Source: Lacipirellula parvula (lineage in GTDB: Bacteria > Planctomycetota > Planctomycetia > Pirellulales > Lacipirellulaceae). From it: a DNA stretch of 64,000 nucleotides. Under the pieces are notes generated by a model. It saw nothing but the letters and a program-made list of their open reading frames with translations, had not been told where the DNA came from and did no database searches. Positions 1-5,013 of the stretch are shown one piece after another. Position numbers and translations under genes: made by a program. The first letter of the stretch is position 1. Every line of letters starts with the position of its first letter. The stretch covers positions 3,330,501 to 3,394,500 of the forward strand of contig NZ_AP021861.1 in the NCBI RefSeq assembly GCF_009177095.1, read 5' to 3'.

Positions 1-340
1 GCGCCCCCGGCCACGGCGCCGCTGTCATGTTAGCCTTCAGGCCTGGACGAGCGGCGCCTGCTGAGGTTCGGCGAATCGCCACCTGTCGCTCTTCGTCAAG
101 TATCGGCACCACGTTCAGAATTCGGTGCCGGGAATCCGCCTCAATCGTTGCCATCAATTGCTCGACGACTTCCTTCTCGCCTTCCAGGAATTGCAAGAAC
201 GTCGCTGACTCGAACTCGTAGGTGAGATATCCGGTAATCTCCAGTCGTTGATTCTTAGCGGAGGCCAGCCGCGTGAGTTGCACCATTGCCGATTCGTCGA
301 AGGGCGCCGTCGCTACGCTGGTATAGACCAATGCAAACAT
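1..340 (-). CDS. BLUF-domain blue-light sensor (partial)
   Basis: The reverse strand from the ATG at 340 encodes at least 113 residues and runs off the window, so the C-terminus is missing. It matches the BLUF fold, which binds FAD and senses blue light. Key flavin-pocket residues are in place: Tyr6 in LVYTSVA, Asn30 in AKNQRLEITG and Gln50 in FLQFLEG, followed by the family's RHRILNV segment (about 71-77). BLUF proteins of this size usually act as single-domain sensors that bind a partner, or are N-terminal to an output domain; which applies here cannot be seen. The neighbours are two-component and HD-GYP genes, so a signalling role fits, but no direct link is visible. Confidence 0.85.
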   Translation of the reverse strand, partial: MFALVYTSVATAPFDESAMVQLTRLASAKNQRLEITGYLTYEFESATFLQFLEGEKEVVEQLMATIEADSRHRILNVVPILDEERQVAIRRTSAGAARPGLKANMTAAPWPGA

Positions 341-465
341 CACTGACCTTATTCTAACGAAAGTGATTCAAGGCGCGACGCTGCGTCTCAGTATCTCCGA
401 GAAGTAGATTCCTAGTCGCTTATCTTCCGAAGACTATCTTGGCCGATCACCCACGGCCTCGTGCG

Positions 466-551: not shown

Positions 552-1175
552 CTACGCCCGGCGAAGTTGAAGAAGTTGTCCTGTTAGCAACGTGGCGCGT
601 TCAGCGGCAATCAGCACCTCGCTCAGATCTTCTCGCACAGACGAACCCTCCGGAAGCCTATTGAATGCGATTTCCGTTTGGCCAATCATCACGGTGAGCA
701 GATTATTCAAGGTGTGAGCGATCTCGCCCACTTTCTTGGCCCAATTGACGACGTTCGAATCGGATTCGAGACGCTCCTCCGTCGAATTCGCTCCTTCGCG
801 CTCGACGGCAAAGCGAACGGCGCGACGCAGCTGCCCTTCTACCGTATGCCCCTTCACCAAATAGCCGTCAGCGCCTTCCCGCGCGGTGTGCAATTCGCAT
901 AGCTCGCCGGGCGTTGAAGTCAGCACAATCACCGGAACGTGAGGCGCATCATGCCTCAGCTTGGTGAGCGTTTCGACTCCATCGGAATCGGGCAGACCGA
1001 GATCCAGAACGACGGCGTCGGTGTGGACGTTCTTCAACTCGCTAATGGCTTCTTCAAGCCGTTCAACGTGAGCGACGACGAACTGCGGTTCGCGCGACAG
1101 TTCGACTTGAGCCAGCGCCGCGTCGACTTCGCTATCCTCTACAAGCAACACCCGAAACATTTGCGGAACATTCAT
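552..1175 (-). CDS. Response regulator receiver fused to a histidine-kinase dimerisation domain, no ATPase domain
   Basis: The 207-aa product (ATG at 1175; a second ATG lies five codons in) starts with a CheY-like receiver. Acidic residues E13/D14 precede phospho-acceptor Asp58 in VVLDLGLPDSDG, and Lys108 lies in YLVKG. After a linker (about 125-145) comes a HisKA-type helix with a phosphorylatable His154 in GEIAHTLNNLLTVMIG. The protein then ends about 50 residues later. The HATPase_c domain (N, G1, F, G2 boxes) is absent, so it cannot autophosphorylate and may be a phosphorelay intermediate that needs a partner kinase. It lies 333 bp downstream of the NtrC-like gene on the same strand. Confidence 0.8.
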   Translation of the reverse strand: MNVPQMFRVLLVEDSEVDAALAQVELSREPQFVVAHVERLEEAISELKNVHTDAVVLDLGLPDSDGVETLTKLRHDAPHVPVIVLTSTPGELCELHTAREGADGYLVKGHTVEGQLRRAVRFAVEREGANSTEERLESDSNVVNWAKKVGEIAHTLNNLLTVMIGQTEIAFNRLPEGSSVREDLSEVLIAAERATLLTGQLLQLRRA

Positions 1176-1508
1176 ACGACATGAAGCCATGCAACCATTG
1201 TGGGACCGTTGGATGCCGGAAGACAGGATGACGAAGGTCGCATCCTATTGAGCAGCCAATCGCAACACTCAATTCCAGGGAGGCGAATCCCAGGACCTGA
1301 GCTTCTCCGCGAGTCGTTGCACGGCTCGAAGTGGATTGCACGGCGTTCATCGTAGACCATTTCCTCCAAATAATTGCATGACTACATGCCTAAGTTCGGA
1401 CAAAACGGCAAACCGCGAATGGGTCTAGAACCTGCCTGAAGCTGCCTAGACTGCCATCGCGGCAATAAGCCACGCAATAACGGCAGTTGTGAGTGAATTC
1501 CAATCATT
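1176..1508. other. Intergenic gap, no gene seen
   Basis: No ORF here looks like a real protein. It separates the NtrC-like gene from the receiver-HisKA gene and may carry the promoter of the latter. Confidence 0.4.
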
Positions 1509-2909
1509 TTACTTCTCAGCGTTCTCGTCGTCCTGCTCCATAATTCGATAAAGCGACTTACGGTGTAGACCCAGCGTCCGCGCCGCCGCCGACTTATTGC
1601 CGTGTGAGCGATTAATCACTTCCGAAACCAAGGCCCGCTCCATGATCTTGAGGTCGCCTATATAGGGGACCGAGATCATCTCCGTATTCGCGGGCGGACG
1701 CGTTGGCGGCAACAGTTCCGCCACTCGCGCGGCCGACAGTTGCGATTCCGACGTAAAGACGATGGCCCGACGTACGAAGTTTTCGAGTTCGTAAACGTTG
1801 CCAGGCCATTCGTAGCGTTCCAGCTTGGCCATCGCCTCTTCGGTAAACTCGATTTTTCGGCGGCGGTCGTACGACTGCGAAGTGCGGTTGGCTTCTTTCA
1901 TCAGGCTCGCCAGCAGCGGTCGAATATCTTCGCGGCGCCGGCGCAGCGGAGGCACCTCCAGGGGAGCTTGACTCAGGAAGTTATGAAGATCATCGACGAA
2001 GCCTCCGGCCCTTACGAGAGGCTCAATATTTTCTGACGTCGAGGCGACGATCCGGGCTTCCAGAGCGACTGGCGCGACGCCTCCGACGCGCAAGAATCGC
2101 TGTTCCAGAAACGCCGTCGCCAGTTCAGCCTGCATCCATTTAGGAATATTGGCGACCCGGTGCAGAAACAGCATGCCGCCGGCCGCCCGTTCCATCGCCC
2201 CGCGTTGAATCTCGCCTGTCGCCGATTCTTTGCCAAAGAGCACCTCCGCGAGTTGGCCTTCGCTGACCGCTTCGCAATTGACTTTCACCAAGGGTCCGGT
2301 CGAGTTGGAACTGATCGAATGGATGTAGCGAATAACTGTCTCTTTGCCCGCTCCCGTTTCGCCGGTGACTAACATCGGACTGAACGACGCGGCACTCCGC
2401 TTCGCGAACTCAAGCACGCGTTGCATCGCGGGACTGCAAGCGACGACCGACGCCTCAGTCGCCGGCGCGGCGGCAATTGCTGCCTTTGTTTCCATCGCGC
2501 GATTGCGCGACTTCACATTATTGGTCGCAGCTCGGCCGAGCGCTCCGGCGACCTGATCGGCTCGAAACGGCTTGGTAATGTAGTCGACGGCTCCCAGGTG
2601 GAATGCATTCACCGTGGAATCGACAGTTCCATAGGCCGTGACGATCACCGTCGAGATTCCGGGCTGGATCCGCCGCGCTTCGCGAATGACTTCCAGCCCG
2701 CTGCACCCGCTCATTTGCAAATCGGTGAATAAGGCGTCGAACGGCCTCCCCCGCAGGTGCTCAAGAGCCAATCTCGGATCCGTCTCGAGCTCTACGTTGG
2801 CGCCCTCGTTCTCGATAATGGCGCCAAGAAGCCGGAGCACTTGCGGATCATCGTCGATGACCATCACCCGATTGCCGGTACTGCAAAGAGACATGGAGCA
2901 ATGCTGCAT
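1509..2909 (-). CDS. NtrC-family response regulator with degenerate AAA+ domain
   Basis: The 466-aa protein has the NtrC order: receiver (about 14-125; Asp63, Thr91, Lys113), AAA+ domain (about 155-385) and C-terminal Fis helix-turn-helix (about 425-458; SHGNKSAAARTLGLHRKSLY). The Walker A loop is intact (GETGAGKE, 183-190), but the motor is otherwise damaged. The Walker B segment reads MLFLHR where the family has LFLDE. The GAFTGA sigma-54 loop is replaced by a shortened FGKESATG. The FREDLYYRL arginine-finger segment reads FVDDLHNFL with both arginines lost. It probably binds DNA in response to phosphorylation without remodelling sigma-54 holoenzyme, perhaps like the sigma-70-dependent HupR/NtrC proteins of Rhodobacter (inference). 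Start codons six or sixteen residues downstream are also possible. Confidence 0.85.
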   Translation of the reverse strand: MQHCSMSLCSTGNRVMVIDDDPQVLRLLGAIIENEGANVELETDPRLALEHLRGRPFDALFTDLQMSGCSGLEVIREARRIQPGISTVIVTAYGTVDSTVNAFHLGAVDYITKPFRADQVAGALGRAATNNVKSRNRAMETKAAIAAAPATEASVVACSPAMQRVLEFAKRSAASFSPMLVTGETGAGKETVIRYIHSISSNSTGPLVKVNCEAVSEGQLAEVLFGKESATGEIQRGAMERAAGGMLFLHRVANIPKWMQAELATAFLEQRFLRVGGVAPVALEARIVASTSENIEPLVRAGGFVDDLHNFLSQAPLEVPPLRRRREDIRPLLASLMKEANRTSQSYDRRRKIEFTEEAMAKLERYEWPGNVYELENFVRRAIVFTSESQLSAARVAELLPPTRPPANTEMISVPYIGDLKIMERALVSEVINRSHGNKSAAARTLGLHRKSLYRIMEQDDENAEK

Positions 2910-3223
2910 TGTTCTACCTCAGAGCGGTAATGGAACGCGCGACTGCCGTTGCCTTCAACGTGATGCTGCGGGTAGGGGGTATCCTGGCCAACTGGCCGCA
3001 TGACGCTTGAGAAGAGCAGGCCCACGAACTATCGCGTGGGCGAGCAACTTTTGCAGGTCGCCGCGCTGTTCGCAAGATGTGTCACCATGTCGCGCCGAAC
3101 GACTGCAACATAACTCTTTGGGTCGGCGTCGTGCAACAAAAAACTACAAGGGGGCGCGCGGGTCAGGCGAGCTAGCGTCGTTGCACTCACTGTCGGCCTC
3201 CGCCGGTGAGCGACTCGCAATTG
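2910..3223. other. Intergenic gap, no gene seen
   Basis: No convincing coding sequence or RNA structure was found. It contains the upstream region of the NtrC-like gene. Confidence 0.4.
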
Positions 3224-3912: not shown

Positions 3913-5013
3913 ATGTCACGCCAAAAAGTTCTGATCATCGATGATGAACCCTCCCTTTGCCGGTGCCTCAAGCAGTGGTTAGAAGAGAGAGGCTTCGAGT
4001 GCGCCTCGGCGCCAGACGCCGAGCGCGGCTTCGCTTATTTGCAGTCGCACACAGTCGACATCGTGACGCTAGACAATAAACTTCCGGGAATCTCGGGAGT
4101 TGAAATGCTAGCAAGACTGGCGATCGAAGCGCCAGACGCGGCCGTCCTCATGGTGACGGCGGAAGTCGACACCCGTAAAGCCATCCACGCGATGACCCTC
4201 GGGGCGCTCGGCTACGTTATCAAACCGGTCCGCAGAGAAGACCTGTTCGCTCAGATTGACAACGCCCTGGAGCGCCGCAGGCTGAGCATCGAGAATCGTG
4301 AGCTGACCTTACGACTTCAGGAGAAGGTCCGCCTGCAAACAGCCGAGATCCGTGCAGCGCACGAAGAGACGATCTATCGACTAGTGAAAGCCGTCGGTTA
4401 TCGCGACGAAGAGACGGGAGATCATGTTCGACGCACGGGCCAGTACAGCGAGCTCCTCGCGGCCACGATTGGTTGGCCGGCGGAGCAAGTGGAAATGATT
4501 CGCCTCGCCGCGCCGATGCACGACATCGGCAAGATTGGCATTCCCGACGCCATTCTGTGCAAACGCGGCAATCTCACGGCGGAGGAAATGTCGATCATGC
4601 AACATCACACGCTGATTGGCGGACAAATGCTCGAGGGATCGTATTCGCCCGTTCTGCAGATGGCTCGTGACATTGCTCTCACTCACCACGAGCAATGGGA
4701 TGGCTCAGGCTATCCGCGCGGCCTCGCCGGAAATGCCATCCCCGAAGCTGGAAGAATCGTCTCGATCGTCGACGTTTTCGACGCGTTATCCCACGCGCGC
4801 GTCTACCGTCCGGCGTTCAAAGACGCCGACGTTGAGCAAATGATGTGGGCGGGTCGCGGCACGAAGTTCGACCCGCAATTTCTGGACGACTTCATGTCGC
4901 TACGGCCCGAGATGTGGGCGATTGCCAGCCTAACCGTGCATGGACGAACAGACGTTGCTGATCGTCGCTTCGACGATTTGCTTCCGGCGACGCGGAGTTT
5001 GCAGCCGAATTGA
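3913..5013 (+). CDS. Receiver-HD-GYP response regulator (probable c-di-GMP phosphodiesterase)
   Basis: The 366-aa protein has a receiver (about 4-120; IIDDE near the start, Asp54, Lys in GYVIKP), a coiled linker (about 125-155) and an HD-GYP domain (about 155-345). The catalytic signatures are present: MHDIGKIGIPD around His203, and HHEQWDGSGYPRGL from His258, where the GYP triplet is intact. HD-GYP proteins with both motifs usually hydrolyse cyclic di-GMP at a metal centre in the cytoplasm, and the layout is that of RpfG-type regulators. No cognate kinase is adjacent apart from the HisKA-only protein at 552-1175. Confidence 0.9.
   Translation: MSRQKVLIIDDEPSLCRCLKQWLEERGFECASAPDAERGFAYLQSHTVDIVTLDNKLPGISGVEMLARLAIEAPDAAVLMVTAEVDTRKAIHAMTLGALGYVIKPVRREDLFAQIDNALERRRLSIENRELTLRLQEKVRLQTAEIRAAHEETIYRLVKAVGYRDEETGDHVRRTGQYSELLAATIGWPAEQVEMIRLAAPMHDIGKIGIPDAILCKRGNLTAEEMSIMQHHTLIGGQMLEGSYSPVLQMARDIALTHHEQWDGSGYPRGLAGNAIPEAGRIVSIVDVFDALSHARVYRPAFKDADVEQMMWAGRGTKFDPQFLDDFMSLRPEMWAIASLTVHGRTDVADRRFDDLLPATRSLQPN

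Follow-up and report, generated by a model that had tools for sequence, protein, structure and literature searches.

The window, a 64,000-nucleotide stretch of the Lacipirellula parvula genome (one contig, 6.92 Mb), carries on its minus strand a gene for a 466-residue response regulator (1509..2909), whose ORF starts with ATG and has a Shine-Dalgarno-like GAGGT upstream. Pfam divides the product into Response_reg (residues 15-121), Sigma54_activat (157-317; 114 bits), AAA_lid_14 (323-403) and HTH_8 (422-455), which is the REC-AAA+-Fis domain order. In the receiver domain (2547..2867, minus strand) the phosphorylation residues D19, D20, D63, T91 and K113 are all intact, as is the Fis-type helix-turn-helix (1536..1652, minus strand); both are delimited by Pfam and alignment. 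A 19-bp near-perfect palindrome, GAGCAATGC-T-GCATTGTTC (2896..2914), covers the start codon; elsewhere in the genome it has no exact match and three matches with 1-2 mismatches, and it is a weak lead to a candidate autoregulatory operator. Around the gene, no sigma-70-like promoters were found, and matches to the sigma-54 promoter consensus were not above chance in the 16.5-kb neighbourhood.

This 16.5-kb stretch is rich in signalling genes: two hybrid kinases, another kinase, a BLUF protein, a REC-DHp protein and a REC-HD protein. The REC-DHp product (552..1190, minus strand; ORF and Pfam) joins a receiver to a partial HisKA (DHp) domain and is devoid of the kinase ATPase domain, and it is a possible phosphotransfer partner; a strong terminator-like hairpin of 14 pairs lies past the 3′ end of its gene (466-499). 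Just downstream, where histidine kinases abound, is the BLUF blue-light sensor gene (1-343, minus strand, cut by the window start; L141:12314-12844). The REC-HD protein (3913-5013) is HD-GYP-like and has no close relative in the genus. None of the neighbours shown in the 16.5-kb stretch matches the NtrY family.

The AAA+ domain tells a different story from its flanks. Aligned with 94 homologs, which served as the reference for all motif calls, the protein retains an intact Walker A, GETGAGKE (2340..2363; G183, E184, G186, G188, K189), as the first-pass annotation had claimed, and also the equivalent of PspF N64 (Asn211). The lesions which that annotation placed in Walker B, the GAFTGA loop and both arginine-finger positions are all present: (i) Walker B (2157..2174) reads MLFLHR instead of TLFLDE, with H250 and R251 replacing an Asp and a Glu found in 94/94 homologs each; (ii) in the L1 region (2196..2234), GAFTGA has become SATGE, and the region is 4 residues shorter than the canonical one; and (iii) the RxDxxxR arginine-finger segment (1974..2000) is FVDDLHNFL, in which V305 and F311 replace arginines present in 94/94 homologs each while the intervening D307 is intact. 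Three further losses had gone unlisted: the sensor II Arg (94/94 homologs) is Y373 in WPGNVYEL (1785..1808), the sensor I Asn (88%) is S292 (2034..2048), and the PspF R122-equivalent (99%) is T265. All these segments are on the minus strand. Of the features by which an NtrC-family (group I) sigma-54 enhancer-binding protein (EBP) is known, the protein has the REC-AAA+-Fis order and is missing a GAFTGA loop 1, a Walker B DE and RxDxxxR.

The damage is domain-specific, centred on AAA. The fraction of conserved columns retained is 0.53 in AAA, compared with 0.93 in the lid, 0.85 in REC and 0.83 in the HTH, and the earlier description of the receiver and Fis domains as well kept agrees with these values; in canonical proteins the AAA fraction averages 0.95 and never falls below 0.78. 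Losses have hit 10 of the 13 catalytic, trans-acting or L1 columns versus 15 of 53 among the remaining conserved columns of AAA and lid (Fisher p=0.003, with functional classes that we assigned ourselves). Sequencing error is very unlikely as a cause and was rejected, because five of the seven motif substitutions each take 2-3 base changes, the reading frame is preserved across the L1 deletion and the genome is a single contig.

Can such a motor work? In PspF, GAFTGA is a sigma-54 contact, and the wild-type ATPase rate of 39.5 per min falls to 0.15-0.23 per min, less than 1%, in the D107A, E108A, R162A and R168A variants (PMC3419264, PMC4132715). Since single Ala changes nearly abolish activity and the window protein has all of these residues changed, remodelling is almost certainly gone and, judged by these residues, the motor is almost certainly dead. 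The earlier view of a non-remodelling protein is therefore strongly supported: apart from Walker A, the catalytic, trans-acting and sigma-54-contact motifs are gone or altered. Assembly need not be lost with them because the PspF R162, R168 and E108Q variants formed constitutive hexamers (PMC3419264, PMC4132715), and an AF2 model of the window protein preserves the AAA fold (pLDDT averaging 85 overall and reaching about 90 or more in the AAA core). The genome also encodes a single RpoN and, besides the window protein, 19 EBP-type proteins scoring above 150 bits, and those inspected have normal motifs; with the canonical RpoN/EBP system intact, the change in the motor is specific to this protein.

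If the motor is dead, what might the rest of the protein do? We favour, with a probability of about 0.6, a reading in which an NtrC-architecture two-component response regulator has turned into a phosphorylation-controlled DNA-binding protein. ATP hydrolysis at a useful rate and engagement of sigma-54 would have been lost with the residues described above; the AAA+ domain would remain as an oligomerisation platform, possibly still with ATP as a ligand, and would couple receiver phosphorylation to DNA binding; and the bound protein would act as a repressor or else activate sigma-70-type promoters, as NtrX and Rhodobacter capsulatus NtrC are reported to do. What is observed here is the residues; the activity, partner kinase and targets are inferred.

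Regulators of this general kind are already known, and the closest analogue is NtrX, which is the best PDB, NCBIfam and fold match. The Brucella abortus protein (PDB 5m7n/5m7o/5m7p; NF051870) shares the REC-AAA-Fis architecture and about 31% identity with the window protein, which scores 276.8 bits against NF051870, its best-scoring family, below the cut-off of 600; in a fold search with the AF2 model, the best solved matches were full-length NtrX structures, including the ATP and ADP complexes. Like the window protein, NtrX has no GAFTGA and has its sensor I Asn replaced, and 5m7n aligns with it gaplessly through an L1 of equal loop length. Unlike the window protein, NtrX has the Walker B DE, both arginines and the sensor II Arg; that it keeps its catalytic residues while doing without GAFTGA counts against our reading. 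NtrX is reported to be an activator and possibly a repressor (PMC7240162). Other EBPs devoid of GAFTGA are reported to act on sigma-70 promoters (PMC10274813), among them R. capsulatus NtrC, which requires ATP binding but not hydrolysis, and Caulobacter NtrC, whose Walker A and B residues are required in vivo (PMC10274813), a requirement that also counts against our reading; by their published description, the L1 deletions in these two differ from that of the window protein. The fold search also matched VpsR and FleQ (PDB 7v2b, 8p53), atypical EBP-fold regulators that are c-di-GMP effectors; VpsR (spelled VspR in that source) is described as having no GAFTGA and acting with sigma-70 (PMC10274813). 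Loss of GAFTGA is thus not new, and the ATPase residues are present in the cases compared (NtrX by its sequence, Caulobacter NtrC from PMC10274813).

The strongest challenge is that the gene, for a regulator that was acquired or is redundant, may simply be decaying into a pseudogene, its frame still open by chance. It is an orphan: searches of 60 relatives, of 397 genomes from the order and 294 from the phylum, and of the genome_contigs set returned no ortholog, and the best identities are 37% (order) and 40% (phylum). The inspected matches retain the motifs, except one with DD at Walker B (L157). The branch of the window protein is the longest in our tree (2.14 changes per site), which counts against the preferred reading and fits relaxed constraint too. 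GC3 of the neighbourhood genes is 0.56-0.69, lower than the 0.77-0.83 of eight canonical EBPs of the genome, and for the two neighbour proteins searched no close relative was found in the genus or family; the stretch may therefore have been acquired. Yet the gene has 466 open codons, a Shine-Dalgarno-like sequence and coding-type composition, and decay would be expected to reach Walker A and the flanking domains too; REC, lid and HTH stand at 0.83-0.93 against 0.53 for AAA. Similar proteins, moreover, are maintained in relatives, and we consider decay improbable, though it is the rival to be taken most seriously.

These relatives came from a Pfam survey of twelve genomes, which yielded a few low-scoring full-length members, one of which was then used to search the order. 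Three of the low-scoring members form one orthologous family (45-51% identity), and the order-wide search expanded the motorless REC-AAA-Fis group to 16 proteins in eight genera (e.g., in genomes G023, G011, G050 and G222), each 27-30% identical to the window protein. In all 16, the Walker B Asp is replaced by E, Q, N or G, and the second arginine and the sensor II Arg are lost; the sensor I Asn is lost in all but one; and GAFTGA is lost or altered, with one member (L188) mostly retaining it as GAFPGA. The first arginine is kept in all and the Walker B Glu in most. One member, L184 (G028:C1:2127706-2129142), has lost the Walker A lysine as well (GEHGTGEL). In a quick tree from which the trait columns had been left out, the 16 proteins form a single supported clade that lies among canonical NtrC-type regulators. 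Between close members dN/dS is 0.02-0.13, in the whole protein and the AAA part alike (rough values, as several dS exceed 1), so the order does maintain NtrC-type regulators that lack a motor. The first-pass annotation had argued for selection and not decay: it gains indirect support from these same-architecture relatives under purifying selection, while the window gene itself has no ortholog. Its question whether the same substitutions recur likewise gets a divided answer, with the same positions lost in another clade but no ortholog found among relatives, order or phylum.

Could the protein instead act on its canonical cousins by assembling into their rings, either to poison them as a dominant-negative subunit or to modulate them as a tuning one? 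Its AAA fold and Asp307 are present, canonical EBPs are encoded in the same genome, and mixed rings can form, given that PspF subunits with cis defects complement those with trans defects when the two are mixed (PMC3419264). But identity to its paralogs is low (31% for the closest in its own genome), the protein carries an HTH of its own besides an intact receiver, and no canonical partner gene adjoins it; such a role appears distinctly unlikely, more so than decay. Least probable of all is a nucleotide sensor, in which ATP or ADP would bind at the intact Walker A and DNA binding would respond to energy state with no hydrolysis involved: Walker A and Asn211 are present, NtrX has been crystallised with ATP and with ADP, and R. 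capsulatus NtrC needs no more than ATP binding (PMC10274813), but the protein lacks the sensor II Arg and the R168-equivalent, and PspF R168 variants have a very poor Km (PMC3419264), so that nucleotide affinity may be low.

Returning to the motorless regulators, the 16-protein clade has a characteristic setting. At 10 of the 11 clade loci examined, the regulator gene adjoins one for a PilJ-HisKA-HATPase-REC-Hpt hybrid kinase, and at 10 of 11 one for an alginate-export-type porin; neither the PilJ hybrid kinase nor the porin adjoins the window gene. Several loci also have genes for NMT1_2 (NrtA-like), a NIR_SIR nitrite/sulfite reductase, a flavoprotein reductase or a globin. The arrangement can be seen at L209 (G050:C2:156000-168000), L210, L211, L212 and L213-L219. 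From these neighbours, a role in nitrate assimilation is suggested for the clade, whose locus looks like a nitrate-responsive system.

How many times has the motor been dismantled? Besides the clade and the window protein, there is a singleton in genome G035 that has lost GAFTGA, the second arginine and the sensor II Arg but has kept Walker B. The sensor II Arg is gone from 18/18 of these proteins, as is the second arginine, while the sensor I Asn and the Walker B Asp are each missing from 17/18. In the free tree the window protein sits outside the 16-protein clade, on its long branch, and it seems to be a case of its own and a more extreme one; forcing it into the clade is not rejected (AU p=0.233), so that a separate origin, though likely, is unproven. 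The least number of label changes required by the tree, again the quick one, is three. We therefore put forward tentatively, at slightly less than even odds, a broader proposal: in this order, NtrC-type regulators would have become motorless phospho-switch DNA-binding proteins at least three times through recurring losses of the sensor II Arg, the second RxDxxxR Arg, the sensor I Asn, the Walker B Asp and GAFTGA, with one lineage a long-maintained nitrate-assimilation regulator and the window protein the most disabled.

This broader group is a more valuable result than the window gene. A maintained lineage with a dismantled hydrolysis site would make it possible to tell apart, in natural proteins, what AAA+ assembly, nucleotide binding and remodelling each do, and would reveal a repeatable route from a sigma-54 activator to a simple DNA-binding regulator. 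It also carries a caution: Pfam Sigma54_activat matches overcount sigma-54 activators in these genomes. A step along the route may be visible in the G035 protein, which pairs in the tree with a nearly canonical paralog from the window genome. The two are a possible intermediate: the G035 copy (L177; G035:C1:1657788-1658285) has the three losses given above, and the window-genome copy (L152; G000:C1:3805858-3806355) keeps DE and RR and has an altered loop, GTFPGA.
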